From an uncultured Bacteroidota bacterium (lineage in GTDB: Bacteria > Bacteroidota > Bacteroidia > Flavobacteriales_F > PHOS-HE28): a stretch of 38,940 nucleotides of DNA. Position numbers and translations under genes: made by a program. The notes under the pieces were generated by a model that was given only the letters and a program-made list of their open reading frames with translations, had not been told where the DNA came from and searched no databases. Shown here in pieces: positions 15,917 to 32,114 of this stretch (its first letter is position 1; each line of letters starts with the position of its first letter). The DNA lies in NCBI GenBank assembly GCA_902825795.1, contig CADECG010000013.1, positions 1-38,940 of the forward strand, written 5' to 3'.

Positions 15917-17229
15917 TCAGCAGCGGGTGTTACGGGTTCACCGTTCAACAACCGGTCGGGCCGTGAAATGAACCGTTTGTCGACCGCGAGGTAGGCAAGC
16001 ATGGAGAAGAGGACCATGTGGCCGAGAAAGATGCCGTGCGCAAAGATGTCGATCTGGTATACGAAGAGGATGTAGATGAGTGCGGCGTAGATCGGGGCCT
16101 CGCTCAGACCGTCGATGTAGCGCTGACGGTAATACTTGTACGCAACCCACATCAGCCAATAGAAAATGCCTAAGGCAATGATCCCTTGGCTGGTGAGGAT
16201 CTCCAGAAACGTGCTGTGCATGTGCAGGTTGTATGCGTCCTCTTCACCCCACAGGCGCGCAACTTCGTCGAGCATGCCGATCTTGTAGTGGCCGTGATAG
16301 CTCAGGCCTTGCACCATCCCACGGCGATCGTGCATGGCCCAATCGGCCACAGCTTCCCAGATGTAAGTACGGCCATTGAAGGAGGTGACATCGTCCTTGC
16401 TGACGCGACCGAGGATACTGGCGAAGAAGGGGAGGCTGAGAACGGTGTAGATGAGCAGCGCGAAGCTCATCATCAACGGCATGGTGAAGAGCGAGATCAA
16501 GTAGACACGGGCCGCTTTCATGGCCTTGAAGAGGAAGAGCACCGTGAAGAGCAGGAAGAGCATGAATGAGAGGCGGCTGTTGATGCTGAGCATCGCCCCA
16601 AGGTTCAGTAGGTACAGGCCGCCGTACCCGAAAAACCGAAGTGGCCGTGAGCTCATCTCGGCGAACTTGATGCGGAACAGCAGCATCATGTTGACGATGG
16701 CCACAAGGTGCGATCCGTCGTAGATGCCCGTTGCGAAAGGCAGGCTCACCCGGCCGGGGAAGGTGTGCATGAGGTTGCGCAAACCGGCCGCGTAACCGAG
16801 GTAGTTGATGATGAGCAACGCCAAGAGGCTGCGCAGGAGGAGCTCCGTAAAATCGAAATCCTCAGCGGCGCGGTTGTATATCAGAACGATCACCACCGCC
16901 GGGAAGGGCACCAGAACCAACAGCGATTGGCCCACGGTGTTGGGCAGCGTGAGGATGGGAACATGATGCACCAGCAGGCCGATCCAATACATCAACACCA
17001 GCGATGCGATGTAGGCCATGGCCACCCAGAACACCCGATTGGTCATCGGTTGCAGCACGCGCTGATACATGCGGTCGATGACCCAGAACAGGATGATCGC
17101 CAGGTAACCCAGCGACGCCGTGATGTACCCGATGGTCGGGCTCTGTTTCACGATCAGCCAGCACCCGATGCCGTAGATGGGCAGGGCGGCAACGAACATG
17201 AAATTGATGAGCTTCCGCTTGCTGAGCAC
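15913..17229 (-). CDS. O-antigen ligase/polymerase-like membrane protein (Wzy/WaaL type)
   Basis: A 438-residue, strongly hydrophobic protein with about a dozen predicted membrane spans. Near the C-terminus lies a large periplasmic loop containing SFNGRTYIWEAV and, further on, the family hallmark HMHSTFLEILTSQGIIALG. Family members either polymerise lipid-linked repeat units (Wzy) or transfer chains to an acceptor (WaaL). Beside Wzx, Wzc and Wza a polymerase is the likelier role, but sequence alone does not separate them. The start is GTG (17227-17229). A 94-nt gap separates it from the preceding gene. Confidence 0.85.
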   Translation of the reverse strand: MLSKRKLINFMFVAALPIYGIGCWLIVKQSPTIGYITASLGYLAIILFWVIDRMYQRVLQPMTNRVFWVAMAYIASLVLMYWIGLLVHHVPILTLPNTVGQSLLVLVPFPAVVIVLIYNRAAEDFDFTELLLRSLLALLIINYLGYAAGLRNLMHTFPGRVSLPFATGIYDGSHLVAIVNMMLLFRIKFAEMSSRPLRFFGYGGLYLLNLGAMLSINSRLSFMLFLLFTVLFLFKAMKAARVYLISLFTMPLMMSFALLIYTVLSLPFFASILGRVSKDDVTSFNGRTYIWEAVADWAMHDRRGMVQGLSYHGHYKIGMLDEVARLWGEEDAYNLHMHSTFLEILTSQGIIALGIFYWLMWVAYKYYRQRYIDGLSEAPIYAALIYILFVYQIDIFAHGIFLGHMVLFSMLAYLAVDKRFISRPDRLLNGEPVTPAAE

Positions 17230-17303
17230 GGCTGTGGATGGCTGCGGGCCAAGGTATCCTTCCCTCCAGCCGGTGTTCGCGTTCAGTAAGGCGGCCCGCT
17301 GAC

Positions 17304-17325
17304 GATCGGCTGTTGGCCGCCGATC
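17304..17325 (-). other. Inverted repeat just after the HlpA-like gene
   Basis: A 7-bp inverted repeat (17304-17310 with 17319-17325, 8-nt loop) overlaps the stop region of the upstream gene on the minus strand. No T-run follows, so it is a weak candidate for a leaky terminator or processing hairpin within the operon. Confidence 0.3.
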
Positions 17326-18319
17326 AGTTGATGCCGAGTTTGCGCTGCAACTTGCCGAGGACGGGCGTAATGGCCTGATCGATCTCCTTGGGTAGCGCCT
17401 TTTTCAACTTGTTCTTCAAGCGGCGCAGCATGCTCGGCTCGATGTACTTCTGGAAATACTCCAGATCACGCTCTTTATCGCACACCATGAAGGCCGGGTG
17501 CTTCAGCGGGAAGGTCATTTCGCCAGCGGCATCCTTGTTGCGTGGATCCAAGTGACTGCCGGTATGCGTGCTGCCATCACCGAAACCAATGTTGCGGATC
17601 AGGTTCACGGTGGGGATGATGTTCATGCCACCGTGAACGATACGGCCGTAATCGAGCTGAAAGTCCCAGCTATGGATACGGCCATCCCAGCTGCTCTCAA
17701 GCAAATGCATGGCCTCGCGGGCCTCGCCCTTATCGAGGAAATGTCCGTTCAATAAACCGCCGTCGCGCAGCGCCGGCCAATCGTTCATGTGCAGGTCGTA
17801 CTTGTGCCACATGCGGCGCCAACTGGCCCAGCCCCAATAGGCGCCGTAGCCGTGGGCGCTGTAGTAGTAGCTCTCGTTGTTGCGCGCGGGCCACTCGGGC
17901 ATGAGGTTGTTGCCCATAACGATCCAGATCCGCTCGTCGTCGCGGTAGCGCAACAACATGTCCTGTGCGAACCAGAACCACGAGAGCATCGGCTTGCAGT
18001 CATCCTCAAGTATGATCCCTTCCTCCTCGTGCTCGAAGAACCATGTGATCGCTGCCGGTGGACCGAATTTCACGGTCTGGTTGGTTTCGCTGAAGCGCGT
18101 TTTCAGCTCGCACGGCCAGTCCACCAGCTTCACCAGGTCGCGCACACGCTGCACGTCCTCACGCTCCTTGTCGTTGCGTGCACCATCGCAAGCGAAATAC
18201 AAGCGCGGGGGTTTCGCAGCGCGGATGCCCTCCATAACGGCCTTGCTCTCTTCGAACCGCTTGAAGGCGATGAAGAGAACCGCTGTGTTGAGCGGACCCG
18301 GTGGTGTGAACGTGCTCAT
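17324..18319 (-). CDS. HlpA-like nucleotide-diphospho-sugar transferase
   Basis: A 331-residue GT-A-like transferase of the group often annotated as hemolytic-protein HlpA-like or nucleotide-diphospho-sugar transferase in capsule loci. Visible are LNTAVLFIAFKRFEES at the start, YFACDGARND, the metal-binding EDDCKP in GIILEDDCKPMLSWF, and a long aromatic-rich acceptor region (YYYSAHGYGAYWGWASWRRMW, then SWDFQLDYGRI). It probably adds a sugar to the repeat unit. A longer in-frame extension exists but lies in the neighbouring gene; ATG 18317-18319 overlaps that gene's stop (ATGA) and gives a sensible N-terminus. Confidence 0.82.
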   Translation of the reverse strand: MSTFTPPGPLNTAVLFIAFKRFEESKAVMEGIRAAKPPRLYFACDGARNDKEREDVQRVRDLVKLVDWPCELKTRFSETNQTVKFGPPAAITWFFEHEEEGIILEDDCKPMLSWFWFAQDMLLRYRDDERIWIVMGNNLMPEWPARNNESYYYSAHGYGAYWGWASWRRMWHKYDLHMNDWPALRDGGLLNGHFLDKGEAREAMHLLESSWDGRIHSWDFQLDYGRIVHGGMNIIPTVNLIRNIGFGDGSTHTGSHLDPRNKDAAGEMTFPLKHPAFMVCDKERDLEYFQKYIEPSMLRRLKNKLKKALPKEIDQAITPVLGKLQRKLGIN

Positions 18320-19617
18320 TCGTTGCGCCTCGGTTTTCCCGTCCAGTAGGGATCGCTCCCGAAGGTATTGGTGACCTTGTTCCGGTAATACAGGTCGAAG
18401 TTGCGCAGCATGCCGATAGCATGGCGGGCCACTTCGCCGGGGCGGGCGAACTCGCCGACGAAACGGTATAGGAACAATTGCATTCGGTCGGCCCATCGTA
18501 CGCTGATGTCCTGCACGATGTTGCCGTGCCGATCGTAGGGAAGGATCTCGATGCAACCCGCTGCTAAGGCCGTTGGCAATAGCATGTTGCTGCCGTGTAC
18601 CCCCACCACCAGTTGGCTTTTGGCGTAGGCATGGCACCACGTGCGTTCCATGGCCTCGTCCATCCGTGTGGTACGCAGGTCGTCGGCCAGACTTCCGTAG
18701 CCGCCTTTCGGCGCGAGGCCCACAACACTGAAGGTGCATTGCGGAACGGCGGCCTTGATGGCGCGCATACTGCGGCGGATCATGCGGTCCTGAGCCGATA
18801 CGAAGAGCATTTTCGCAAGACCCTTCATGCCCAAGCGACCCATTGCACGCGAACAGAACTTCGCCAAGCCGTTGGCGAACCAGAGCCTGTCCTGCCGCGC
18901 CACGAAGGTTATGTGCGGAGAGCGTGTGCTGAACTCCTGCAGCTTGAAGGGTGCAATACCGGTGTAGCGTTCGATGTCGATCCGCGTGAAATCGGGGTGG
19001 GCATAGCCGCGCGCCATGTTCACTTCATCGTACTCTACTAATCGCTCTTGCACGAAGGTGTTGATGGCAGTATGCCATGCTTGGCCTTGTCCCAGTTTCA
19101 CATCCACGATCCACACCTCGGCGCAGCCCTTCGGTTCCAGCCATGCGAACATGCGCGGCAACAGCACCACAACTCCGTGATCCGGATAGTTGTCGATGTA
19201 GTGCTGTGCGTTGTACAGCTTCAGCAGCACGTGCCCATAGAGGAAATCGATCGTATCGAGGATGATCACCCGTTTGCTCGGGCGCAGCACCTTGCGCTCG
19301 ATCTTCACCGGCGCATCGCTTCGGTTCTTGAAGGCGTTCAGCAAGGGACCGTACAACCAGCTTTCGGCGCCGGACTGGTTGAAGAGCTGACCATCAGTTT
19401 TGCCGATAGCGATGGGATGATCCACCGAGAAGCCGACCGGTAGGTCGCGGAGAAAATCGAGGCCGCAGGCGTTGCACCGGTGGTCGCCGAGTACGTGAGC
19501 GCCGGGGAAGAGCACACCGTTGCATGCGATGTCGCCGGAGCCACAGGAAGGACACACGAATGCATGGTACTGCACCGGCTTCACGGGTACCAAATGGCGG
19601 TCGGCGGTTATGTTCAT
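18316..19617 (-). CDS. GT61-like glycosyltransferase with N-terminal zinc ribbon
   Basis: A 433-residue protein. Residues 17-55 contain CPSC at 22-25 and CNAC at 48-51, a Cys4 zinc-ribbon pattern. The rest resembles GT61 (DUF563) glycosyltransferases: RVIILDTIDFLYGHVLLK, NMARGYAHPDF, HITFVARQDR, SVVGLAPKGGYGSLAD and the family hallmark VVGVHGSNMLLPTALAAGCIEILPYD near residues 335-360. GT61 enzymes transfer pentoses or GlcNAc in other organisms; the donor here is unknown. ATG 19615-19617 overlaps the flippase stop (ATGA). Longer frames upstream lie inside the flippase gene and were rejected. Confidence 0.75.
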   Translation of the reverse strand: MNITADRHLVPVKPVQYHAFVCPSCGSGDIACNGVLFPGAHVLGDHRCNACGLDFLRDLPVGFSVDHPIAIGKTDGQLFNQSGAESWLYGPLLNAFKNRSDAPVKIERKVLRPSKRVIILDTIDFLYGHVLLKLYNAQHYIDNYPDHGVVVLLPRMFAWLEPKGCAEVWIVDVKLGQGQAWHTAINTFVQERLVEYDEVNMARGYAHPDFTRIDIERYTGIAPFKLQEFSTRSPHITFVARQDRLWFANGLAKFCSRAMGRLGMKGLAKMLFVSAQDRMIRRSMRAIKAAVPQCTFSVVGLAPKGGYGSLADDLRTTRMDEAMERTWCHAYAKSQLVVGVHGSNMLLPTALAAGCIEILPYDRHGNIVQDISVRWADRMQLFLYRFVGEFARPGEVARHAIGMLRNFDLYYRNKVTNTFGSDPYWTGKPRRNE

Positions 19618-20939
19618 CGGGCCCGGTGGAATTTCCAGAAGCTGAACATGGCTTTCATCATCCAGCCGAAGTTGGCGCGCGTATCCTTGAAGAACAGGTC
19701 CATGAGGAAGATGCTCACGGTAAAGGAAATGACCGATGCCCAGATGCTGCCGATGGAGCCCATGGTAGGAATCAACAGGTAGTTGATGCCGATGTTGAGC
19801 GACGCACCGACAACGGCCGTGATGAGCGAGTACTTGAACAGGCTCTCGTTGGTGATGAAGCTTGCCTTGCCCATGCCCATGTTGGTGAAGAGCAGGCGGA
19901 TGCTGAACAGGCCCAACAGCACACCGGCAGGCCTGAACTCTTCGCCGAAGTACCACGCCATGATCGGTTCGGCGAGCAGGTATAGCGGGACCGCAGTGCA
20001 GAGGAACATGAGGAACATGAGGCGGTACTGGTTGAGCAACCGGTCCTCATACTTCTCGCGGCTCTCCATTTTGGCCCGCGCGATCGCGGGTGCTAAACTC
20101 TTCTGGACGATCACGGGCAGGAAGCCGAGCGCTTCGACCATCTTCAGCGCTACGCTGTATTGGCCCACTTCAGCAAACGCTTTCTCCTTGCCATAGTCTG
20201 GATGTTTCGCGAGAAGATCGCCGATCATCACTTGGTCGATCTTGGCCTGAACATACAGCGCGATACCGAAGACGATCAATGGCCAGCTCTGTTTTAGCAG
20301 ATCTCTCAGGAGGTCTTTGCTGTATTTCCATGCCCGCCATGTCGCGCCGCTGCGTTCATACGCGATCAAGTAGCCGCCGCTCAGCACCAGCATCTCCACC
20401 ACATAGCTCCATGCGAACCAGGTGAGCGGTGCGTCGATGGCGATGAGGAAGAACTTGTAGCCCGCGCTGATCAACGCTTGGGCAATGAGCACCAAACTCG
20501 ACGTTCGGGCTTCCACCCGGGCCTGGTACCAGTACTCGATGACCACGAACGGCTTGAGCAGTTCGGCGATGGCGATGATGCCCACCAGCATCAGCGTGTC
20601 GCTGTCCATTCCCTTCAGGAAACCGATGCCGGTTGTGAGGACGACCAGTAGCAGTGCCCCGATGAACTTGAGCATGGCCGAGGTACCGAGAAGGTCGTCG
20701 CGGCGTTCGGGTTTGCGCACGAGATCGCGCACCACGATCTCATCCAACCCCATGCTCGTCAGCGCGAAGAAGAGCCCGACGAACCCAGCGGCGTAGCTCA
20801 ATTGACCGAAATCGGTGGCCCCTAGTTTTTCGGTGACGTACTTCGTGGTGATGAGCACCACAACAAGTCGAAGCACCTTCTCCACGAACATCCATGAGGT
20901 GTTCGCCAGGTACTTGCGCGCGCCTTCGCTCTTCAGCAT
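19614..20939 (-). CDS. Wzx-type polysaccharide flippase
   Basis: A 441-residue member of the MOP/PST superfamily that moves lipid-linked repeat units across the inner membrane. It opens with KYLANTSWMFVEKVLRLVV and LGATDFGQLSYAAGFVGLF, the usual first two helices. GLDEIVVRDL follows, then alternating hydrophobic segments consistent with about 12-14 helices. The length is normal. The ATG lies 17 nt after the Wzc-like stop, and the 3' end overlaps the GT61-like start. Its presence, with a polymerase and a Wzc/Wza pair, defines the locus as Wzx/Wzy-dependent rather than ABC-transporter or synthase type. Confidence 0.92.
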   Translation of the reverse strand: MLKSEGARKYLANTSWMFVEKVLRLVVVLITTKYVTEKLGATDFGQLSYAAGFVGLFFALTSMGLDEIVVRDLVRKPERRDDLLGTSAMLKFIGALLLVVLTTGIGFLKGMDSDTLMLVGIIAIAELLKPFVVIEYWYQARVEARTSSLVLIAQALISAGYKFFLIAIDAPLTWFAWSYVVEMLVLSGGYLIAYERSGATWRAWKYSKDLLRDLLKQSWPLIVFGIALYVQAKIDQVMIGDLLAKHPDYGKEKAFAEVGQYSVALKMVEALGFLPVIVQKSLAPAIARAKMESREKYEDRLLNQYRLMFLMFLCTAVPLYLLAEPIMAWYFGEEFRPAGVLLGLFSIRLLFTNMGMGKASFITNESLFKYSLITAVVGASLNIGINYLLIPTMGSIGSIWASVISFTVSIFLMDLFFKDTRANFGWMMKAMFSFWKFHRAR

Positions 20940-20956
20940 TCGTGCGTGCGTGGTCC

Positions 20957-23281
20957 TTACTTGACGTAATAACCGTAGCCGCTGCTATTGCCCTTGGCCA
21001 CGTCGTTGAGCAACAGGTCGATGCGACCGAGCTTGCCGTTGGCGTGCAAGCCGTTCACCAATCGTAGATCGCGGCGGTGGGTATGGCGCTCGCGCACAAC
21101 GTACAGGGTAACGTCGATGTGGCGCATGAGGATCACGAACTCGCTCACCAAGCCCATGGGGCTGGCATCAATGATCACGTGATCGTAGCGTGCGCGCAGT
21201 TGTTTGAAGAACTCTTCCATGTGCGGGCTTTCGACCAGTTCCAGCGGATTCGGTGGTATGGGGCCGGCGGTGATCACATCCAAGCCCGGTATATCGGTGC
21301 GGCGGATCACACTGTCGAGAGCGGCATCGCCGATCAGGATGTTGCTCAGGCCCGGGCCATCCTTCAGTTCAAGCGTTTCCTGCACACGCGGGCGACGCAT
21401 ATCGGCATCCACCAGCACCGCACGTTTGCCGCTCAGCGCCATCACCGTGGACAAGTTGAGGGCGCAGAACGTTTTGCCTTCGCCACTGCTGCTGCTGGTG
21501 AAGCCCACGACCTGTCGCGGTGCATCGGCATTGAGGTATTGCAGGTTGATGCGCGCGGTGCGGAACGCCTCGGCCAACAGGCTCTTCGGCTCATCCATGG
21601 TAATGCGCTTGCGCTTGCTGCTCGGTATGGTGGCCAGCAGGGGTATCGGGCTCAATCGCTTCAGCTCGTCCTGATCAGCGATGGTGTCATTAAAGAAGTC
21701 ACGGAGCAGGATGAACCCGATGGGAAGGATCAAGCCAAGCAGGAGCGCAGCTCCGAAAATGGTCTTCTTGTCCGGAGCGACCGGCCCACCACCGATCATA
21801 CGGGCGGGATCCACCACGGTCTTATCCACTTGATCGGAGTTGATGGCGATCTGCGCCTCGTAGAGCTTCTCCATCAAATAGTTGTTGATGCTCTCCGTGA
21901 GTTCGTATTGATTGATCGCGATATCCTTCCGTTGCTGCTCTTTCGGCAACTGGCCCAGTTGCCAATTGGCTTGGCCGATGCGCTGATTGGCATCCTGCAA
22001 CTCGATCTGCAATTTGCTCAACAGGTTCTTCGCACTGCCGATGATCTGCGCACGTCCGTCACGAATGGTCTTCATCAAGGCCAGGGTAGGGGCTGTCGGA
22101 GTTTTCTCGGTAACGCGGATCTGGCTCAGTCGATTGACGTTCTGGTTGTATCGGTCGATCAACGATTCCAGGCCGGGATCGCCCAAGTTCGCGGAGGAGG
22201 GGACCGTGCGATCGTCATCAGCCGACATGCCGTTGATCAGTTGCTCTTGCAGATACTGGATGCCCGTTCGCGCACGACTTTGTTGCTCTTGGTACCGGGC
22301 CATCTCATTGTAGAGCTGTTCAGCACGGCCGTCGCCTCCAACCGGACCGCTCTGGATCACGATATCGGTTGCGGCCTGCATTTCGGCCCGGGAGCGTTTC
22401 AACTGCGAATCGATGAACTCGATGGTGCGATTTCCCTTCTCGTTCTGTTTGTCCTGCTCGCTTTCGATATAGACCGCCATCAGCGTATTCAGGAAGTCCT
22501 TCTCCTTTTCCACTGCTTCGCCGGAGGTGCTGAGCATGACGATGTTGCTCTTCTCGCCCATGCTTTCGATACCAAGCTTTGCGCCGTAAGAATCAACAAG
22601 GCCTGTTAGACTGTTGATAAAGAAGAAATAATCCGTTTTCGGGTCGTACGGAAAGCTATCAGGGAATGAGATGGTGAACGCCAAGTGGGGCAATTTCACA
22701 GGCTCGCCGAATTTGCGCTCTTCCTTCACGCTGGCCAACGGATCGAACGCGTCCGTTACCACCTCTTTCACCGGATCATAGAGGTGGACATTCTTGCCTT
22801 CTGCGTTAACGGTGTAGGTTTTTGCAGCGCTGTTCACCTTAATGTGGATCGGGAGCCCGGTGTACTGGTGCACCGAGCTATCGAGTTTCACTTGGAACGG
22901 TGGGTAGTCGTACAACTCACTGGTGAGGTAGTTCTTCTTCGCCAAGTAACTGATGCCGAAAGGCAGGCGCTTCAGTGTTTTTTGCAGGATGTTCTGACTG
23001 CGGAGTACGGCGATCTGGTCCTCGATGTCCGCGCTGTTGCGCAGGTAGCCTGTACCCTTGATGAATTCCTCGTTGCTCGCGCCGAAACTGTTACGGCTTT
23101 TCTCACTGAGCATGATGGATGCGCCGACGAGGTAGGACTTGGTCGTCGTCTTGTATTTCCAGACCGCACCGGCGGTGCACAAGCCGATCGTGATCAGGAA
23201 CAACCACCACATGGCGGTCATCTTACCGAAGATGGCCCGCAAGTCGATAGTGTCGCCAGCGGTTTGTTGTTCCCTGCTCAT
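20957..23281 (-). CDS. Wzc-like polysaccharide co-polymerase / tyrosine autokinase
   Basis: A 774-residue inner-membrane protein controlling chain length and export. The N-terminal Wzz domain has a first membrane helix at about 24-42 (MWWLFLITIGLCTAGAVW) and a periplasmic region with coiled-coil stretches. A second helix lies at about 505-528. The cytoplasmic BY-kinase domain has Walker A SSSSGEGKTF near 592, Walker A' AVLVDADMRRPR near 622 and Walker B HVIIDASP near 702. A short C-terminal tyrosine cluster (GYGYYVK) is the likely autophosphorylation site, with only three Tyr. The kinase is fused to the membrane part, as usual outside Firmicutes. It overlaps the Wza-like stop by 4 nt. Confidence 0.94.
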   Translation of the reverse strand: MSREQQTAGDTIDLRAIFGKMTAMWWLFLITIGLCTAGAVWKYKTTTKSYLVGASIMLSEKSRNSFGASNEEFIKGTGYLRNSADIEDQIAVLRSQNILQKTLKRLPFGISYLAKKNYLTSELYDYPPFQVKLDSSVHQYTGLPIHIKVNSAAKTYTVNAEGKNVHLYDPVKEVVTDAFDPLASVKEERKFGEPVKLPHLAFTISFPDSFPYDPKTDYFFFINSLTGLVDSYGAKLGIESMGEKSNIVMLSTSGEAVEKEKDFLNTLMAVYIESEQDKQNEKGNRTIEFIDSQLKRSRAEMQAATDIVIQSGPVGGDGRAEQLYNEMARYQEQQSRARTGIQYLQEQLINGMSADDDRTVPSSANLGDPGLESLIDRYNQNVNRLSQIRVTEKTPTAPTLALMKTIRDGRAQIIGSAKNLLSKLQIELQDANQRIGQANWQLGQLPKEQQRKDIAINQYELTESINNYLMEKLYEAQIAINSDQVDKTVVDPARMIGGGPVAPDKKTIFGAALLLGLILPIGFILLRDFFNDTIADQDELKRLSPIPLLATIPSSKRKRITMDEPKSLLAEAFRTARINLQYLNADAPRQVVGFTSSSSGEGKTFCALNLSTVMALSGKRAVLVDADMRRPRVQETLELKDGPGLSNILIGDAALDSVIRRTDIPGLDVITAGPIPPNPLELVESPHMEEFFKQLRARYDHVIIDASPMGLVSEFVILMRHIDVTLYVVRERHTHRRDLRLVNGLHANGKLGRIDLLLNDVAKGNSSGYGYYVK

Positions 23282-24063
23282 GGGTTGGAATTCTGTACCA
23301 CGGTTACGACAAGCGCCGCAGCGCTGATGGCCGCGAAAAGGATACCCAGTAGGTCGAGGTTCGATCGACCCACTTTCGCCCTCAACGTTGGAACGTACAC
23401 CACATCCCCGGGCAGCAAATAGTAGTATTCGCTCGTGAGCACATCGGTGCTACCGAGGTCCACATAGATCGCTTGCACGCCTTTGTCGCTCTGGCGCATC
23501 AAGGTCACCTTCTCCTTGTCGCCGAACTCATTGGCACCACCGGCTTGCGCAAGGGCCTCCAGGATCGTGATCTGGTTGTTGTACACGAAGTACGTACCGG
23601 GGCGCTGCACATCGCCGAGCACGCTCACGCGGTAGCTCACCAGTTTCAGGATCACAGTAGCATTGGTGAAGATGTCATTGATCTTGCGCTGCACCAATTC
23701 CTGTGCTTCGCCCACGGTGAGGCCTTGCACCTTCACCTTGCCCACGCTGGGCAGTTGCACTTGACCGTTCTTATCCACGCTGTAGCCGTTCACGAAGAGC
23801 GCCGCTTCGTTGAGCCCAACGGATCCGTTGGCGCTTTCCACGTTGAAGAAGATCGATGTAGCGGCGTCCAGGCCCATCACGCGGATGCTCATCACATCGT
23901 TGACCTGGATGCGGTACTCGAACTTCTTGTTCTCGAACAGCTTGGCACCCTCGGTGCTCAGCGAATTGTCGCGCAGGTAGTTGATATCGCGGCGACCCAC
24001 GCATGAGGCTAAACTCGCCATCACAAAAATGCCGAGCAGCCACTTCATTCCCTTCACTTCCAT
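23278..24063 (-). CDS. Wza-like polysaccharide export lipoprotein (OPX)
   Basis: A 261-residue outer-membrane polysaccharide export protein. A lipoprotein signal ends in MASLASC (Cys21). The polysaccharide export domain follows (FEYRIQVNDVMSIRV), then an SLBB-type region (VSVLGDVQRPGTYFV, ITILEALAQAGGANEFGD) and a terminal hydrophobic helix (LLGILFAAISAAALVVTVV) typical of Bacteroidota OPX proteins. ATG 24061-24063 is the first start; a Met five codons in (24048) sits closer to the signal core and is equally likely. It is the first gene of the run that continues to 14544 and partners with the Wzc-like kinase. Confidence 0.92.
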   Translation of the reverse strand: MEVKGMKWLLGIFVMASLASCVGRRDINYLRDNSLSTEGAKLFENKKFEYRIQVNDVMSIRVMGLDAATSIFFNVESANGSVGLNEAALFVNGYSVDKNGQVQLPSVGKVKVQGLTVGEAQELVQRKINDIFTNATVILKLVSYRVSVLGDVQRPGTYFVYNNQITILEALAQAGGANEFGDKEKVTLMRQSDKGVQAIYVDLGSTDVLTSEYYYLLPGDVVYVPTLRAKVGRSNLDLLGILFAAISAAALVVTVVQNSNP

Positions 24064-24233: not shown

Positions 24234-24791
24234 TCAGTTATTGAGCGACCCGACCGCTTCGTTGGGTCCGCCTGGTGTTGGTGGGGCCAGCGGCACCCAG
24301 GTGTCCGTGCCATCCGGCGCACGACCCGTTGAAACATCAGGGCGGGCTGTATCCTGTATCCGGATCTCGTCCACCACCATGATGCCATGGCCATCGAAGT
24401 GCACCAAGGCAACAGTTCCATCGTTCCCCGAGAGCCTGAAGTTGGTGTGGATACCTTCCTGGTCGGTGTTCTCGCCGTCGCACCAGATCACGAGGAATCC
24501 TTCGCCGGGGATCATCACCTCGGGCAGTTCATACTTCAAGGGCTCGTGGTCAAGGTCGTCCGTCACGAACCATTTTCCACAATTCAGCAGCAAGTCATTC
24601 CCGGGAGCGTACAACTCGAACCAGTCGGCCTGTTCACCGAACTCGTTCATCTGATGCGATCCGGAAGCGACCAGTTCATTGATCACAATGCATCCGGGAT
24701 GGACCTCGACCAACGTTGGCGGATCCGGTTTTCCCTCCTTTCCACAGGCGATGTACATCAAGGGGATGGATGCGAGGAGAGGCAGTTTCAT
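24234..24791 (-). CDS. Lamin-tail-domain lipoprotein
   Basis: A 185-residue exported protein. The first 16 residues form a short signal ending in MYIACGK, with Cys16 as the probable lipidation site. The body is a lamin tail (LTD) fold: CIVINELVASG, QADWFELYAPG, CGKWFVTDD, PGEGFLVIWCDG, FRLSGNDGTVALVHFDG and DTWVPLAPPTPGGPNE, the proline/glycine ending typical of bacterial LTD domains. Such domains are found on cell-surface proteins of Bacteroidota and are thought to mediate binding. A TTG start four codons upstream (24803) is possible, but ATG 24789-24791 gives the better signal peptide. The gene lies 171 nt ahead of the Wza-like gene on the same strand. Role unknown. Confidence 0.78.
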   Translation of the reverse strand: MKLPLLASIPLMYIACGKEGKPDPPTLVEVHPGCIVINELVASGSHQMNEFGEQADWFELYAPGNDLLLNCGKWFVTDDLDHEPLKYELPEVMIPGEGFLVIWCDGENTDQEGIHTNFRLSGNDGTVALVHFDGHGIMVVDEIRIQDTARPDVSTGRAPDGTDTWVPLAPPTPGGPNEAVGSLNN

Positions 24792-25031
24792 GGTGCGAAA
24801 CAACCTCGGGGTTGCTACGACCTGATTTCGTCAGCATGAAGGTTAGGTGAAGCGGGCACCTTGATGGCTTCATCCCTGAACTGCTCATTGGGCCGAACCG
24901 TTGCCAACATCGTACTGATGATGTATCTCATCCCGCTCTGGACATGCATCCTGCAGTTGACCGACCTTCGCTGACCTCATAAGCCGGGTATGTGCACAGG
25001 ACAGGTCAATAGGCAACGTGAAAGTCTGAAA

Positions 25032-27278
25032 ATGGTGCGGGGTGTTGCCGTGCTTTCCATCGCGCTCCTTTCGCTGGGAGCATGTGGTCAAAGCCCCTCG
25101 AGCAAGAGTGCTGTGCGCTTGACCGCCGTGGCGGACAGCACGGCACCTGCGATCGCGTTGTTCTGGGAGGCCTTCCCGGGTTCAAGTGCCTTCAGCGTTT
25201 ACCGCAGACCGCAGGGAGCAACCACATGGGGCGCCGCTTTGGCCTCCTTGCCCGGTGCCGCGCTATCGTGGACGGATACTGCTGTAAGCGTAGGCACTCC
25301 GTATGAGTACAAGCTCGTGCGCAGCGCGAGCGGGAACGGTTACGGTTATGTGAGTTCCGGGATCGCGGTGCCGCCGAATGAGATCCGCGGTAAGCTGGTC
25401 CTGTTGGTTGAATCGGGTGTGGCGGCGCTACTTACAGCCGAACTGGACCAGCTGGTCGAAGATCTATGGGGCGACGGCTGGATGGTGTTGCGTCATGATG
25501 TTGGCAGCAGTGATCCCGTCACTGCCGTGCGTGCACTTGTCCAAGCGGATCATGCGGCCTATCCAGGACAAGTGAAGGCGGTGTATGTGGTCGGTCATGT
25601 ACCAGTGCCGTACAGCGGCAATACGAACCCGGACGGTCATAATGAGCATCGTGGTGCTTGGGCGTGCGATGGGTATTACGGAGAGATGACAAGCACTTGG
25701 AACGATGTCACGGTGAACAACATGTCCGGCTCTTTCCCCCACAACCACAATGTTCCCGGTGATGGGAAATTCGATCACAGTGATTTCCCGTCTTCCGTTG
25801 AACTGGCCGTGGGCCGCGTGGACTTGTCCCGCTTACCGGCTTTCGCCTTACCGGAAGTGGAGTTGTTGCGTGGCTATCTGCACAAGGCGCACGCGTTCAA
25901 AACGCGCCAGTTCACGGTGCTGCCCACCGCGGTCATCAACGACGACCTTCAGTGGGTATCGAACCCGTTGGGTTCAACTGGGTACAAGAGTTCGATTCCC
26001 TGTGTGGGCCCAGCCGCATTCACGGAGCTTGTTCCATCGCTGGCTCCGTTCTCCGATCATTTCCTCGTTACCGACGATCTGTGGTCTTACCACTCCAGCA
26101 GCGGTGTGCAGCTTGTCGATAGCCTTGGCGGTACGCGGTTCGTGGGCACGGCGAACGGACTTACAACCGCCGAGCTTGCAACGAACCAGCACGGGGCGAT
26201 CTTCAATATGTCTTTCGGTAGCTACTACGGCGACTGGGACAACACCGATAACATGCTACGGGCAATGATCGGCGGCGGGAACCCACTAATGCACGTGTGG
26301 TCAGGTATCCCCAATTGGTTCTTCCATCCAATGGCCATGGGCGAAACGGTCGGCGCGTGTGCCTTGCGTTCCATGAACAATACCAACACGGACTACAGTC
26401 TCCAGAACGGTGGCTGGCAAGGACAAGGGATGGTGCGTGCACACATGGGCCTCATGGGCGATCCTTCGCTGCGCATGCGTTATGTAGCTCCGCCCTCGGG
26501 GTTGGTCGCAACGAATACCAGTTGGTATGCTTCATTCAGTTGGAACCCCTCACCGGATGCGGTGGATGGTTACTACATCTATAAGGTGGACAGTGCGAAC
26601 GGACAGATCACACGGATCACGCCAACACTTGTCACGGACACGTTCCATGTATCAACCATGCAGTTTTTCCCCGGGGACCGATACATGGTGCGGGCCATGG
26701 CGCTTACCACCTCACCAAGTGGTTCGTACTACGACTTGTCGTTGGGCGCGTTGGGCATTGCCCAAGGAACCCAAGTAGCCGATTGTCTGGGCATCATTGG
26801 TGGTACGGCCATACCGGGTACGGCATGCGATGATGTGGACCCAAACACGGGGAACGACCTGCTGGATACGCTCTGCATTTGCAGCGGACTTCCCTTCGAT
26901 TGTGAAGGTGTGCCAGGTGGACCAGCGACCGTAGGTAGTGCTTGCGACGACGGCAACCAGCTAACCATCAACGATGCGTATGACGCTTCATGCTTCTGCG
27001 TGGGCATCGTCGATGGCATCCATGAAACAGCTGCCAACCCACTGCGTGTTGGGCCAGTGCCGTGCAATGATGTGTTGGATGTCAGCAGCGATATCGTGCT
27101 GCGCGGCACCTTGAGCATTCGTGCCCTCAATGGTTCGTTGGTGCGCGATACGGTCTGCAATGGCAAGCAAGTACGCATCGACGTGCGGCCACTGGCCAAC
27201 GGCACGTACGTGCTGATCTACGCACCCAAAGACGCCGAACGGGGCGAGCGCACCGTGCGCTTCACCGTCCAGCACTGA
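25032..27278 (+). CDS. Large surface lipoprotein with gingipain-like (pseudo)peptidase domain, Cys repeats and T9SS tail
   Basis: A 748-residue exported protein. The signal MVRGVAVLSIALLSLGAC predicts lipidation at Cys18. Next come an FnIII-like domain (about 27-110) and a long domain resembling C25 gingipain folds: KLVLLVESGV, AVYVVGHVPVPYSG, VELAVGRVDLSRLPA and the closing LMGDPSLRMRY. Where C25 enzymes have the GHG and catalytic Cys motifs this protein reads NMSFGSYYGDW and VWSGIPNWFF, so it is probably inactive. A second FnIII (about 490-570), two 39-residue Cys repeats (584-661) and a T9SS-type C-terminal domain (about 675-748) follow. An upstream ATG (24990) was rejected because it buries the signal peptide. 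Confidence 0.72.
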   Translation: MVRGVAVLSIALLSLGACGQSPSSKSAVRLTAVADSTAPAIALFWEAFPGSSAFSVYRRPQGATTWGAALASLPGAALSWTDTAVSVGTPYEYKLVRSASGNGYGYVSSGIAVPPNEIRGKLVLLVESGVAALLTAELDQLVEDLWGDGWMVLRHDVGSSDPVTAVRALVQADHAAYPGQVKAVYVVGHVPVPYSGNTNPDGHNEHRGAWACDGYYGEMTSTWNDVTVNNMSGSFPHNHNVPGDGKFDHSDFPSSVELAVGRVDLSRLPAFALPEVELLRGYLHKAHAFKTRQFTVLPTAVINDDLQWVSNPLGSTGYKSSIPCVGPAAFTELVPSLAPFSDHFLVTDDLWSYHSSSGVQLVDSLGGTRFVGTANGLTTAELATNQHGAIFNMSFGSYYGDWDNTDNMLRAMIGGGNPLMHVWSGIPNWFFHPMAMGETVGACALRSMNNTNTDYSLQNGGWQGQGMVRAHMGLMGDPSLRMRYVAPPSGLVATNTSWYASFSWNPSPDAVDGYYIYKVDSANGQITRITPTLVTDTFHVSTMQFFPGDRYMVRAMALTTSPSGSYYDLSLGALGIAQGTQVADCLGIIGGTAIPGTACDDVDPNTGNDLLDTLCICSGLPFDCEGVPGGPATVGSACDDGNQLTINDAYDASCFCVGIVDGIHETAANPLRVGPVPCNDVLDVSSDIVLRGTLSIRALNGSLVRDTVCNGKQVRIDVRPLANGTYVLIYAPKDAERGERTVRFTVQH
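26781..27014 (+). repeat. Two tandem 39-residue Cys-rich repeats within the lipoprotein gene
   Basis: In-frame tandem copies of 117 nt (26781-26897 and 26898-27014) encode the pattern DC-G--GG-A--G-ACDD----T-ND--D--C-C-G. The four Cys per copy are conserved, whereas the DNA has diverged, so this is an old protein-level repeat. Similar spacers precede T9SS tails in other Flavobacteriales surface proteins. Confidence 0.75.
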
Positions 27279-27297: not shown

Positions 27298-29064
27298 TCA
27301 GTACTTCTTCTTCCCAGCGAACTTCTTCTTGAACGGTGCGCGTTCCCCTGATGCATCGGTACGTGGACGCTCACGGAAGCCGCCGGTTCCTTCTTGACGT
27401 GGGCGCGCAGCGCCACCGCTGTTACTGCCTTGTTGCAGGTCAACGCGCACAGGCCGGCCTTTGTAGTTGGCGTTCTGGAACGCGGCCATGGCCTTGCTGA
27501 GTTGGCTAGCTTCGATGTCCACGAAGGAGTACACATCTTTCAACGTGATACGCCCGATCGAATCGCCTTGCATGCCGGTGATACCACAGATGTAGCCGAG
27601 CATGCGGCCTTTGTCGAAACCATCAACGGTGCCCAAGTTGATGAACATGCTACCGCCCATGGCGAAGCGTTCGCGCGGCTCGCCCAATGCAGCACCGGGA
27701 TGTGGCCGGCGCGTGTGGTCCTTCTGGCTCATGTCCACGTTGAGGTCCATGCTACCGCGGTAGATCTCCAGGAAACGGTTGAACTCGATGGAGACCACGC
27801 GTTTGATCAATTCCTCTTTGCTCAGTTTCTCCAGGTCGAGGCGCACGGCGTCCATGAATCCGGCAATGCCTTCTTCATCGATCTCCACGTCTTTGATGCG
27901 CTGGATGAGCAGCAACAATTGGCGTTCGCAGATCTCCGCACCGCCCGGCACACGCATGTAGGTGAAGTGCGTTTTCAGCGCGCGCTCCAACTGGCGCACT
28001 TTGCCAATGTCACGCTGTCCGATGATGCTCAATGAAATGCCTGAGCGTCCCGCGCGTGCGGTACGACCGCTGCGATGGGTGTAGCTCTCGGCCTCACCGG
28101 GCAGATCGAAGTGGATCACGTGGGTGATGTCCTGCACATCGATGCCGCGTGCCGCCACGTCGGTGGCGATGAGCAATTGCAGTTGGCGGCTGCGATAGCG
28201 CGCCATGACGCGATCGCGTTGTTGCTGGCTGAGATCGCCGTGGATCGCATCGGCGTTGTAGCCGTCCTTCATCAGGTGCTCAGCAAGCTCCTGTGTTTCG
28301 TGTTTGGTGCGGCAGAAGACGATGGCGAACAGATCGGGCGTAGCATCAACGAAGCGTGTGAGCGCTGCGTAACGATCGCGCATCTGCACCACGCAGTAGC
28401 GGTGGTCGATGGCTTCGGCCGTGGTGTTGGTGCGACCGACGTTGATCTCCTGCGCTTCGCGCATGTAGCGTTTCGCGATGCGTCGCACTTCGCTGCCCAT
28501 GGTGGCGCTGAAGAGCCAGGTGCGTTTGTCCTTGCGAGTGGTTTCGAGGATCGCCGTGAGGTCTTCCTGGAAACCCATGTTGAGCATCTCGTCGGCTTCG
28601 TCGAGCACCACGATGTCCACCAAGGCCAAGTCGATGGCTTCGCGACCGAGCAGATCGAGCAAGCGACCGGGTGTGGCCACTACGATCTGCGCACCCTTGC
28701 GGATGTCGCGGATCTGGTCGCGGATGGGAGCGCCACCGTACACGGCCACGCTCTTGATGCCCTTCATGTACTTGGCGAAACGATCGAAATCCTTCGTGAT
28801 CTGCATGCAGAGTTCACGCGTGGGCGAGAGGATGAGCGCCTGAACGGCGTTCACCGAAGGATCCAACTGTTGCAACAGCGGAAGGCCATAAGCCGCTGTC
28901 TTGCCGGTGCCGGTCTGGGCCAGCACCACGCTGTCCTGCTCGCTCTTCAGCAGCACGGGGATCGCCATTTCCTGTACGGCGGTAGGGGCGGTGAAGCCGC
29001 TTTCCGCAAGCGACTTCAGGAGTTGTTCGTTGAGGCCGAGGTCGGCGAAGGATGGAGTAGGCAT
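27298..29064 (-). CDS. deaD: DEAD-box ATP-dependent RNA helicase (DeaD/CsdA type)
   Basis: A 588-residue RNA helicase that unwinds structured RNA in ribosome assembly, RNA decay and cold adaptation. Motifs in order: Q-motif region FTAPTAVQEMAIP, Walker A AQTGTGKTAAYG, PTRELCMQ, TPGRLLDLL, DEAD in VLDEADEMLNMGF, SAT in LFSATM, then IVFCRTKHETQEL, ATDVAARGIDV and YTHRSGRTARAG. A DbpA-type RNA-binding domain (about 465-545: FINLGTVDGF, IGRITLKDVYSFVDIE) and a basic Gly/Arg-rich tail ending KKKFAGKKKY follow. ATG 29062-29064 is preferred over a TTG 12 codons earlier because it places MPTPSFADLGL at the normal N-terminus. It is convergent with the gene ending at 27278 (19-nt gap) and has an unusually long leader. 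Confidence 0.95.
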   Translation of the reverse strand: MPTPSFADLGLNEQLLKSLAESGFTAPTAVQEMAIPVLLKSEQDSVVLAQTGTGKTAAYGLPLLQQLDPSVNAVQALILSPTRELCMQITKDFDRFAKYMKGIKSVAVYGGAPIRDQIRDIRKGAQIVVATPGRLLDLLGREAIDLALVDIVVLDEADEMLNMGFQEDLTAILETTRKDKRTWLFSATMGSEVRRIAKRYMREAQEINVGRTNTTAEAIDHRYCVVQMRDRYAALTRFVDATPDLFAIVFCRTKHETQELAEHLMKDGYNADAIHGDLSQQQRDRVMARYRSRQLQLLIATDVAARGIDVQDITHVIHFDLPGEAESYTHRSGRTARAGRSGISLSIIGQRDIGKVRQLERALKTHFTYMRVPGGAEICERQLLLLIQRIKDVEIDEEGIAGFMDAVRLDLEKLSKEELIKRVVSIEFNRFLEIYRGSMDLNVDMSQKDHTRRPHPGAALGEPRERFAMGGSMFINLGTVDGFDKGRMLGYICGITGMQGDSIGRITLKDVYSFVDIEASQLSKAMAAFQNANYKGRPVRVDLQQGSNSGGAARPRQEGTGGFRERPRTDASGERAPFKKKFAGKKKY

Positions 29065-29310
29065 GTGTCGAATGATGAATGTCCAAGGCTCAATAGCCAA
29101 TGTTCAAGTGGGGGTACGTCCGCACTTGCGCAGAAGGAAGAAAGCGAAGGGTGTGGGTTGTAGGAGAGGGTTGTTGAGGGTTGAAGCGAGAGGGCCAATG
29201 AGCGGGGCTGCCGCTTCCCTTGGTATTCCTCAGCTTTCAGCCTTCACCCTTCCATGCCATTAGCAGCGGCAACCTGGGAGCGATGGCGGAAAGCTCGTAC
29301 CGCCGTTAGT

Positions 29311-29359: not shown

Positions 29360-32074
29360 TCAGTAGGTGACCCCCAAACTATCCCACGGCATCACGCTGA
29401 CGCGGAAGTCGTCGAGCAGCACGGTGCCCGGCCCGTTGTTCCAGACGTAGGCCTTGAGGGTGCCGGGTTTCCAGCGGAGTTGCTCGACTTGGGCGATGAG
29501 GCAGAGTGATGCCCAGCCGTCAGCGTCAATATCGTGTTCGTCTAATTGCTTGGTACGGTAGAAGAGCAGCTCGCCTTCATTCTCAACACTGAGAACGAGG
29601 AAAGACTCCACTGGGAAAATGAACCCGCCCATGGTATCGACTTCCATCACCATGTTGTAGCTGGCTTGAACGATAAGCGCGTCACCGCTATTTGCTCCGA
29701 GTCCGCTGATCTCCATCTCGAACGCGGGAGACCAGTCGGAAGAGTCTTTCTTGAGGACCATAGCGTTGCGCAGGATGATCGGTTCAGCTCGCTGGGGAAG
29801 TGTGTATTCCAGTTCAGCGAAGGATCTCTCATAGAGAACGGACCCGGATCTATCGGCAGGACAACCGCCGCGAGCATTGCCCTCCGCACCATGCACTGTT
29901 GCCCCTGCGCATCGGGTAAGCAGAGCGGTCCCCGTAACTGCGATCGCCCATCCAACCGACAGAACGCGAGACGTGCGACCAGAGCAGGAGATGGCAAGGA
30001 GCCAAAGAGCGATCAGGAACGAGCACCACGACAATGTGCGCAGCCAACCCAGTACATCTAGTTCATACCGGATCTCGACCAGATGTTCACCACCCACTAA
30101 TGGGATCCGGAGCAGCGGGTCCCCGGGAAATGGCAGGAGCAGGGTAGGTATTCCATCCACATAAGCGACCCACCCGGGAAGTGCGTTCTGCTGGATGACC
30201 AGATAACTTTCTTCACATGCTTTCACATTGATGTCGAACCCAGTGGAACTTATCTGCCGAACCCTCATCACCAGTGGTTCGCAGGATAACCCATCAGGGG
30301 CTTCCGTAAATGGTTGATCGACATATGCGAATGGACGGTAGCGCGCGAGCATTGATCCAAGCGAATTGTTCATCATCGCCAAGTGGTCCTTAGGCCAATA
30401 GCTGTTGAACCCATCATGTGACACCCGCTTCTGGAAGATGTTGGTGTTGCGCCAGAGCGGCTGGAGGTCCTGGTTGTCATCCTTGTTCCAAGCAAGCTCT
30501 TCGTTGTTCGGTGAGGGAAATCCCTCCGGCCGCATCTCCACAATGCGGTCGATGATGCTCGGCGAGGTATCGCTGATACCGGTCTGCCAACTGCACAGCA
30601 GCACGGCGATGACACCTTCCACCGTCACCAGTGCAACCAGACGTGTCGTGGAGAACCACTTCCGCTTCCACAGCATTGCGGCGAACACAGCGAGTAACGC
30701 GAGTTGGACAACGCCATGCACTATGGTGCGTTCAGCAATGCTCGTCGCGTTCATCCGCTCGAAAAGGTTCGCGTGCACATCGTCCAGCGCGAAGCCTAAG
30801 CCGAACTGAATAGTGGCAGCCCTCAAGACCGCGATCAGGATGATGGCGGCTGCAATGGCTATCAACGCCCACAGTGCGGTTCGCGATCGTGGTGTCAGTT
30901 CATTCCACTGGGCCAACGTCCGCGCCACGGGCAACAACCAGCACAACAATGTGAAGTAGGTGTAGTACGAGGGGAAGCGGAACACATCCAGCCCCGGCAA
31001 CGCACTGTACAGCAAACGATGTACTGGCAGCGCATTACCGAACGAGGCAAGCAGACACACGGCGCCGAAGACCAGCAAAACATTCTCCGTTGCGGTACGC
31101 TTCCGCAGGAACGCCAGTGGTACCAACACCAGCATCAGTATGCCCATGTGTGCGTTGGCCATGGTGATGTTGGTGCCCGTGATCTCCGGTCCACCGGTGG
31201 TGGCCCAAGGGATCAGGAACGAGAGTGTCGCTTTCCACGTGAACGGGTTCTGCGCGGCCATTGCGTAGTCCATGCCACCCATGCGCTCGATGAAGGGCGC
31301 GGAATACCACCACGCATGCAACACACCACAAGCCATGATGAGCGTGGCGCAAGCGAAAAGGAGCAGGTGCCCGAACAGGCGCAATGCTGCTCGACGATCT
31401 CCAGAGCGCAGGAACGGCACGCAACGCACTACAATAAGCGCCAGCATCAGGTACGCACCGATGATGGTGAACGTGTGGTTGCCACCGGTGAGCAAGAGGA
31501 ACTGGAACACCGCGGTTTCCAGCGCAGGGCGCCAACCGGGCTTATCGAGCAAGCGCAGGAAGGCAGCGAACATCCACGGCCACCACGCGCCGCTGATGAA
31601 CGAATACTGGTGCATGACGTGGGCTGTGAAAAAGCCCGACAGCGTGTATGCAATGCCGATGGCCAAGGCCGCGCTATGACTTCCGCAGAACTGCTTGGCC
31701 AGCCGGTACATACCCATGCCAGCCACCAGCAGGTATACGATCACCAGCGACTGCAACACATAAATGCTCTGCCCGATCGTCCCGCCCAACAGCAATGCTT
31801 CGGGATACCATGCCGGGCCTTGCAGATCCGCATGCACCGGATAGCCCATCTGCTGGTAGGGGTTCCAAACGGGCCACTCACCATTCTGCAGGCAATCCGC
31901 GATGAACGTGCGCCACGGTAGCCAGCAATCGAGCATGTCGCCGTGCACCACGCAATAGGTGAAGGTGGCCAGGGGCCACCAAGCGATCAGTACGCAAGCG
32001 AGCAGGACAAGGAATGCCCGAAACTCATTGGTGAGCGTTAGCCCGGTGCGTTCGACTCCCCTATGTCGCATCAT
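29360..32074 (-). CDS. YfhO-like multipass membrane protein (first of two)
   Basis: A 904-residue membrane protein of the YfhO (GT-C-like) type. The first periplasmic loop carries CVVHGDMLDCWLPWRTFIADCLQNGEWPVWNPYQQMGYP, here in pieces: HGDMLDCWLPW, an acidic pair region as in GT-C active sites, and WNPYQQMGYPVHADLQ. About a dozen hydrophobic helices follow to roughly residue 490. A soluble C-terminal part contains PGWVAYVDGIPTLLLPFPGDPLLRIPLVGGEHLVEIRYE, one more pair of helices and a beta-rich tail. YfhO proteins are implicated in lipoteichoic acid glycosylation in Firmicutes; the role in Bacteroidota is unknown. The longest frame starts at TTG (32089); ATG 32072-32074 is preferred. Confidence 0.78.
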   Translation of the reverse strand: MMRHRGVERTGLTLTNEFRAFLVLLACVLIAWWPLATFTYCVVHGDMLDCWLPWRTFIADCLQNGEWPVWNPYQQMGYPVHADLQGPAWYPEALLLGGTIGQSIYVLQSLVIVYLLVAGMGMYRLAKQFCGSHSAALAIGIAYTLSGFFTAHVMHQYSFISGAWWPWMFAAFLRLLDKPGWRPALETAVFQFLLLTGGNHTFTIIGAYLMLALIVVRCVPFLRSGDRRAALRLFGHLLLFACATLIMACGVLHAWWYSAPFIERMGGMDYAMAAQNPFTWKATLSFLIPWATTGGPEITGTNITMANAHMGILMLVLVPLAFLRKRTATENVLLVFGAVCLLASFGNALPVHRLLYSALPGLDVFRFPSYYTYFTLLCWLLPVARTLAQWNELTPRSRTALWALIAIAAAIILIAVLRAATIQFGLGFALDDVHANLFERMNATSIAERTIVHGVVQLALLAVFAAMLWKRKWFSTTRLVALVTVEGVIAVLLCSWQTGISDTSPSIIDRIVEMRPEGFPSPNNEELAWNKDDNQDLQPLWRNTNIFQKRVSHDGFNSYWPKDHLAMMNNSLGSMLARYRPFAYVDQPFTEAPDGLSCEPLVMRVRQISSTGFDINVKACEESYLVIQQNALPGWVAYVDGIPTLLLPFPGDPLLRIPLVGGEHLVEIRYELDVLGWLRTLSWCSFLIALWLLAISCSGRTSRVLSVGWAIAVTGTALLTRCAGATVHGAEGNARGGCPADRSGSVLYERSFAELEYTLPQRAEPIILRNAMVLKKDSSDWSPAFEMEISGLGANSGDALIVQASYNMVMEVDTMGGFIFPVESFLVLSVENEGELLFYRTKQLDEHDIDADGWASLCLIAQVEQLRWKPGTLKAYVWNNGPGTVLLDDFRVSVMPWDSLGVTY

Positions 32075-32114
32075 TCTTCCACAGTCCAAACAGAATGGGA
32101 TCGGGCTCTTCTGA

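Follow-up and report, generated by a model that had tools for sequence, protein, structure and literature searches.

A gene in the stretch of DNA analysed here (the window; 38,940 nucleotides from an uncultured Bacteroidota bacterium) encodes a protein with the frame of a C25 cysteine peptidase. The locus raises the question of whether this protein is a peptidase at all and, if not, what the fold may be doing. The first-pass annotation had called it a gingipain-like lipoprotein that has lost both catalytic motifs and carries a T9SS tail. The open reading frame and the strings on which that description drew, VVGHVPVP, AVGRVDLSRLPA, LMGDPSLRM, MSFGS, WSGIP and LGAC, are all present in the translation. 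The gene at 25032-27278 is genuine, and a second in-frame ATG lies upstream of it at 24990. Its features are collected in Table 1.

Table 1. Features of the gingipain-fold gene and its convergent neighbour; positions are those of the window, residues those of the window protein.
Feature	Position	Strand	Basis
Gene of gingipain-fold protein, 748 aa	25032..27278	+	ORF translation
Signal peptide, residues 1-19	25032..25088	+	Gln20 column; cleavage before Gln20 if signal peptidase I acts
LGAC, lipobox-like, residues 15-18	25074..25085	+	Sequence; Cys near Gln in 5/5 clade members
fn3-like domain 1, residues 31-112	25122..25367	+	PDB fn3 matches by sequence and by model
Gingipain-fold domain, residues 114-484	25371..26483	+	Profile alignment, model, fold searches
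Conserved polar cluster, N-terminal subdomain, residues 201-264	25632..25823	+	Conservation in 140 cores
Strand 3 and loop aligned with C25 GHG loop, residues 351-358	26082..26105	+	Profile alignments
Strand 4 and loop aligned with catalytic Cys strand, residues 391-403	26202..26240	+	Alignments, conservation
Ser397 codon, at Cys place	26220-26222	+	Profile alignments
End of strand 5 and loop WSGIPNWFFHP, residues 423-433	26298..26330	+	Strand count of model
fn3-like domain 2, residues 485-576	26484..26759	+	Pfam fn3 19.6 bits (cut-off 25) and model matches
Four-Cys repeat, two copies of ~39 residues each, residues 585-619 and 624-658	26784..27005	+	Sequence pattern, own model
T9SS C-terminal sorting domain, residues 669-748	27036..27275	+	Mirolase CTD match; PF18962 below cut-off
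DEAD-box RNA helicase gene, convergent neighbour	27298..29100	-	Domain search; kept in window's clade

Fold and domain order

An AlphaFold2 model of the protein, built with 83 sequences, has a mean pLDDT of 86.5 and a pTM of 0.80, with pLDDT mostly above 90 across residues 114-484. On this model the protein is clearly a gingipain fold set between two fn3-like domains. Structure comparison gives Z 25.9 to Kgp (4rbm; rmsd 4.5 over 366 residues) and Z 25.8 and 25.7 to RgpB (4ief and 1cvr), and the top Foldseek match is likewise RgpB (E 2.4e-12). PorU, the T9SS sortase, shares the C25 fold but scores lower (Z 13.3, rmsd 15.1), and the best match outside C25 is the caspase-like CHAT protein of Craspase at Z 11.2. 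As in RgpB and Kgp, a two-subdomain fold is followed by an Ig-like domain, with six strands in the C-terminal subdomain; Kgp likewise ends in a T9SS domain, according to an excerpt of PMC6426963. The window protein differs from both in an extra fn3-like domain before the core, with 11-13% identity over the aligned part, and its family differs at the catalytic places, with mostly Gly where they have His (Ser in the window protein) and Ser where they have Cys.

In profile-profile comparison, the family profile aligns globally with 32 C25 domains at probability 96.7 (E 4.9e-10) and locally at 91.3, over the N-terminal half; an earlier comparison with 21 C25 domains had given 77.8. The C-terminal half alone reaches a modest 52-53% in local hhalign (E about 1.4e-4). 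The resemblance of the window protein to C25 exceeds chance. The C25 fold read into it at first pass is thus upheld by the Kgp, RgpB and profile comparisons, but PF01364 misses the protein, which has no match to it at E up to 1. Three of ten relatives scanned pass the PF01364 cut-off of 23 bits (L114, 29.7; L029, 37.0; L155, 26.7), as do two of the four same-genus family matches listed in a genome search (G008, 32.6; G023, 23.1), with a second G008 copy (22.0) and the C8 copy of the window's genome (19.5) below it. Two family proteins from other genomes, L093 (29.2) and L094 (27.4), also pass. An HMM of the 32 C25 domains gave weak matches among 82 family proteins (best E 0.009), and a sequence search of the PDB with the family profile, at E up to 1, found no gingipain.

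The T9SS tail is also confirmed. Residues 669-748 of the model match the mirolase C-terminal domain (8qb1_A) at Z 10.5 and rmsd 1.6 over 74 residues, with the sorting-domain models below their cut-offs (PF18962, 19 bits against 27; TIGR04183, 17.1 against 23); the sister protein L113 exceeds both. A mirolase-type C-terminal domain is shared with type A T9SS cargo, from which the possible N-terminal lipobox sets the window protein apart. The genome encodes SprA (2531.5 bits) and a separate PorU-type C25 protein (C29; 347 bits to PF01364) which, unlike the window protein, retains GHG and Cys.

The repeat region is poor in the full-length model; modelled alone with 35 sequences, it reaches pLDDT 93.5. 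By our own pattern the window protein has two repeats, L113 and L114 none and L118 one (L010 is cut by a contig end), with 0 to 20 per protein elsewhere in the genus. Matches to the repeat occur in 35/35 genus genomes, the window's own included, and in 1/23 others, and the unit of about 39 residues (DCxGxxGGxAxPGTxCDDGxxxTxNDxWxxxCxCxG) fills many stalks in the genus, for example L056:4054-8193. Pfam assigned no family to these repeats, giving a weak TSP_3 match (17.3 bits; cut-off 25) plus the tail in L056. A fold search of the repeat model against the PDB found nothing better than E 5.6, which weighs little for a query as small as 83 residues.

Position and conservation of the catalytic sites

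We collected 162 cores of the domain, of which 140 were kept after removal of near-duplicates, the window included. In clan CD, the third and fourth strands of the C-terminal subdomain end in the His and the Cys, respectively (excerpt of PMC4357240); the triad proposed for Kgp is C477, H444 and D388, with the subdomain border at 375/376 (excerpt of PMC6426963). The RgpB His is printed as His221 in the excerpted text of PMC4357240; in the numbering of our alignment, GHG of RgpB is 210-212 and the Cys is Cys244. By our own count, the strands of the C-terminal subdomain in the model are 300-304, 330-333, 351-356, 391-396, 420-423 and 474-476, strand 3 ending at 356 and strand 4 at 396, with an extra hairpin at 358-373.

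Over the whole domain, hhalign pairs Ser397 with the catalytic Cys. For the C-terminal subdomain, the same pairing appears in local and full-length runs, with and without the C25-like protein L110, and in the global run with L110; the global run without L110 yields no alignment (probability 0.05). Five of the nine hmmsearch pieces printed also contain the pairing (L158, L156, L179, L164 and L174) and four misalign the strand, all nine being weak (each below 0 bits). From the Cys, RgpB reads CVNGDF; from Ser397, the family mostly reads SYFGDW. The spacing from residue 356 to Ser397 is 31 in 88/140 cores, and from Ser397 to the GDP motif the eight commonest lengths are 70-79, against 85-97 in the 32 C25 domains. 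Taken together, the profile alignments, strand count and spacings place GHG at 351-358, the Cys at Ser397 and WSGIP after strand 5. The strand 3 site of the window protein reads LWSYHSSSG (350-358), and the family mostly reads Y-G-C-G-G-G from 353. The residues of the window protein at the aligned His and Cys places are therefore Ser356/Ser357 and Ser397, the His place being uncertain by one residue (356 or 357). The WSGIP loop would lie on the S1-pocket side, as in the gingipains, whose S1-pocket residues are described in excerpts of PMC4357240 and PMC6426963.

MSFGS and WSGIP had been taken as the remnants of GHG and Cys, a register that would put His at 395 and Cys at 424. In fact Ser397, at the Cys place, is the final residue of MSFGS. 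The absence of the dyad holds in all 140 cores, but these two strings lie one strand too far downstream, as indicated by L110, hhalign, hmmsearch and the strand count, and this register was rejected. Its spacing of 28-30 had looked fitting against 29-34 in C25; residue 424 stands 52 residues from GDP in the window protein.

L110/L241 (G035:C78), from another Bacteroidota genome, is a second, separate C25-like protein in which, as in the window's family, both dyad residues are absent. In its Cys strand (MSLGGYWGDW), FLMSLGGYWGDW resembles FNMSFGSYYGDWD. It differs from the family in scoring 152 bits to PF01364 (over 1-372) and in having Gly, not Ser, at the Cys place, and its local match to the family covers just 21-25 residues.

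The Ser397 column holds Ser in 139/140 cores, the exception being L093 with His. At residue 356, Gly occurs in 133 cores, Ala in 4 and Ser in 3; residue 357 is Gly in 102, Pro in 14, Ser in 10, Ala in 9 and Thr in 5. No core has His at either position, and by alignment none has an intact His-Cys dyad. Of 32 C25 domains taken from PF01364 matches for comparison, 31 have the His and 31 the Cys, and the exception is one protein without either. By the defining dyad the window protein is no C25 peptidase, but it stands on the C25 scaffold. The word "lost", applied to the window protein as an event of its own, does not survive this comparison, since the dyad is absent from all 140 non-redundant cores.

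Both former active-site loops are among the best-conserved stretches of the gingipain-fold domain. Mean entropy is 0.79 bits in the loop after strand 3, 0.45 bits in that after strand 4 and 1.79 bits over the whole domain, with 2.23, 2.53 and 1.63 bits after strands 1, 2 and 5 of the C-terminal subdomain. In the N-terminal subdomain, the loop that follows strand 3 has 0.60 bits. For strands 1, 3, 4 and 5 pooled, conservation is higher at the end than at the start, a difference at least as large arising in 65 of 20,000 permutations; this set of strands was our own choice and omits strand 2, whose end is not conserved. The low entropy of these loops without the dyad shows that they are under constraint.

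Distribution, neighbourhood and N-terminus

The window's genome holds four copies of the family. A family match at E 0.001 was found in 40/58 genomes, the window's own included, among them 34/34 of the same genus; in one of the 40, G035, the match is just a 66-residue fn3-like stretch. Among Bacteroidota genomes at least 90% complete, 26/296 (own included) carry the family, with best E below 1e-80 in 25 and a fragment at 2e-17 in the other. A scan of genome contigs confirmed at least 508 relatives. The titles of the 79 loci listed name Flavobacteriales, Saprospiraceae, Hymenobacter, Planctomycetota, Pedosphaera/Verrucomicrobia, Lentisphaerae, Omnitrophica, Lujinxingiaceae and others, a phylum spread read from record titles, which may be wrong for MAGs. 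The phage collection gave no match, and the plasmid members come from Roseobacter (three records) and Methylomagnum (one) only, all four annotated as hypothetical protein. C-termini vary among the ten relatives scanned: in L113 the T9SS tail model passes its cut-off and in L145 it falls below, and the MYXO-CTERM model passes in the planctomycete L156 (17 bits; cut-off 15.85) and falls below in L127. Searches of open-licence papers on gingipains as pseudoenzymes or pseudoproteases, on C25 proteins without catalysis and on planctomycete C25 turned up no such family. This is a separate gingipain-fold family, large, unnamed and well conserved.

The Roseobacter denitrificans member, on plasmid pTB2 (L242:5650-8324), is distant. 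It and the Methylomagnum member retain D201, H203, D213, Y216, R262, D264, H287, Ser397 and H432. Most of the Asp-rich loop is gone from the Roseobacter member, D225, N240 and D248 with it. Its strand 3 loop, DFGHHKG, includes a His, and Ser occupies the Cys place. The gene adjoins a rhomboid protease gene that scores 27.1 bits to the rhombosortase model (cut-off 84), and its surroundings also include a polysaccharide export gene.

In the window, polysaccharide synthesis and export genes (Wzy_C, Polysacc_synt, Wzz/AAA_31, Poly_export) occupy 15913-24063 on the minus strand. On the same strand lie a small protein gene at 24234-24803, lamin-tail-domain-like below the Pfam cut-off and with a lipoprotein-like start (IACGKEGK), and a 909-residue ORF at 29360-32089 for which neither Pfam nor NCBIfam gave a match at E up to 1. 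The window gene and the Roseobacter gene thus both have polysaccharide genes nearby, but tblastn of the two window export genes tested found them in 0/10 loci (four in the window's clade; most span only a few kb), and no weight is put on the shared setting. In the FastTree phylogeny, the window protein groups with L010, L113, L114 and L118 in a single clade with local support 1.0. The convergent helicase gene is kept downstream in L113, L114 and L118 at 63-67% identity, which is 3/3 of the clade loci long enough (that of L010 is too short), and did not turn up in the six other loci tested, two of which overlap.

At the N-terminus, LGAC fits the lipobox motif with its Cys. In each of the five clade members a Cys precedes the conserved Gln by 2-4 residues (LGACGQ, LLACAQ, FYGCGFGQ, LSACGQ, CVACGQ), and three of the five have a strict lipobox. 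Outside the clade such a Cys is uncommon. Among the 113 N-termini parsed of 137, partly redundant, 11 have a Cys within five residues before a Gln, a count that did not pick up L118: four are clade entries and one a duplicate, L179 and L057 are genuine, and L180, L056, L048 and L050 were judged to lie off the cleavage site. By eye, L188 and L160 also have a Cys before Gln. The Gln20 column is conserved in at least 90% of 83 sequences, and Gln20 agrees with the Q-rule described for signal peptidase I in Bacteroidetes (excerpt of PMC5837995). The lipobox overlaps this signal peptidase I site. The kept Cys points to lipidation and the kept Gln to signal peptidase I, and we hold the two outcomes to be about equally probable. 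The lipobox and T9SS tail noted at first pass do occur together as sequence, but for this reason lipidation itself does not follow from the motif.

Binding head or enzyme

We give slightly better than even credence to the following account: the family consists of exported gingipain-fold proteins without the dyad, surface-displayed heads whose former cleft binds a ligand and leaves it uncut. The window protein would be exported by Sec and pass the outer membrane via T9SS, relatives in other phyla partly using other C-terminal anchors. A short Cys-rich stalk would hold its head of fn3, gingipain-fold and fn3 domains at the cell surface, where the protein would act as an adhesin or receptor, its old cleft binding a peptide or glycan and leaving it uncut. 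Display at the surface would fit the T9SS tail, the SprA and PorU-type C25 of the genome and the MYXO-CTERM match in L156. Of this account, the fold, domain order, tail, missing dyad, conserved cleft loops and distribution are results of the computation, and surface location, lack of catalysis, binding and type of ligand are inferred from them. The first-pass annotation had put forward a surface scaffold or binding protein as possible, and the present results support a likely surface binding protein. The nearly invariant Ser397, with conserved His432 and His471 (133/140), also matches what an enzyme would show. An active serine hydrolase, in which Ser397 replaces the Cys and the base comes from elsewhere, for example His432 or, in some members, His354, seems to us unlikely. 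Ser397 and His432 (122/140) are both present in the Roseobacter and Methylomagnum members, the entropy of the Ser loop is very low, and the Roseobacter loop FGHHKG brings a His next to the Ser; however, the old His place lacks His in every core, His432 is Gln in 12, and His354 is found in just 11/140, the window protein and three of the four other clade members (L114, L118, L010) among them, with His anywhere in 352-359 in 13/140. Strand 1 ends at residue 304, the place of the triad Asp in gingipains; this residue is Asp in 125 cores and Asn in 11 and may be that Asp by its strand position, but the stretch faces a gap in the global profile alignment, with a gap there in Methylomagnum too. That the fold has been rebuilt around a Ser397 nucleophile with its base outside the GHG loop, giving surface enzymes in several phyla, we hold to be unlikely as well.

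Similarly doubtful in our view is that the function resides in the N-terminal subdomain, with D201-x-H203, D213, Y216, R262 and D264 as a binding or metal site and the cleft structural. D201, D213 and R262, like G396, are the same in 140/140 cores, H203 and D264 in 139 and Y216 in 138, and all six residues of the cluster are retained in Roseobacter and Methylomagnum despite wide change elsewhere. Yet D213 and R262 each have an invariant counterpart, Asp and Arg respectively, in the C25 set also. D225, N240, D244 and D248, each the same, as are the six, in 138-140 of the cores, lie with E257 near the structural calcium site of RgpB (Asp103/Glu107; excerpt of PMC4357240), which could mean plain calcium binding; by this alignment with RgpB, calcium at 213-257 would be a fair guess, although D225, N240 and D248 are lost in Roseobacter. 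Least probable by far is an ordinary peptidase gene decaying under relaxed constraint. It would fit the missing dyad, the identity to the window protein as low as 33% among 82 aligned relatives and two members in other genomes that are split over two matches and possibly broken (G208:C100, G287:C44), but 18 columns are invariant among the 83 aligned sequences, no internal stop occurs in 60/60 same-genus matches listed (strong ones, E up to 1e-150; three from the window's genome), and the helicase neighbour is kept in the clade. Recent decay was rejected, because relatives under several phylum titles share the same changes.

A binding head that does not cut therefore remains the account we prefer, and Ser397 is a single clear residue for testing this reuse of a protease fold; if the serine-nucleophile reading were true instead, the clan CD fold would have gained a new catalytic type. 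Gingipain-fold proteins are readily mistaken for proteases, and since some family members score above the C25 cut-off without the dyad, automatic annotation could call them cysteine peptidases. Large, conserved and absent from the literature searched, the family would thus offer a tractable case of protease-fold reuse at the cell surface.
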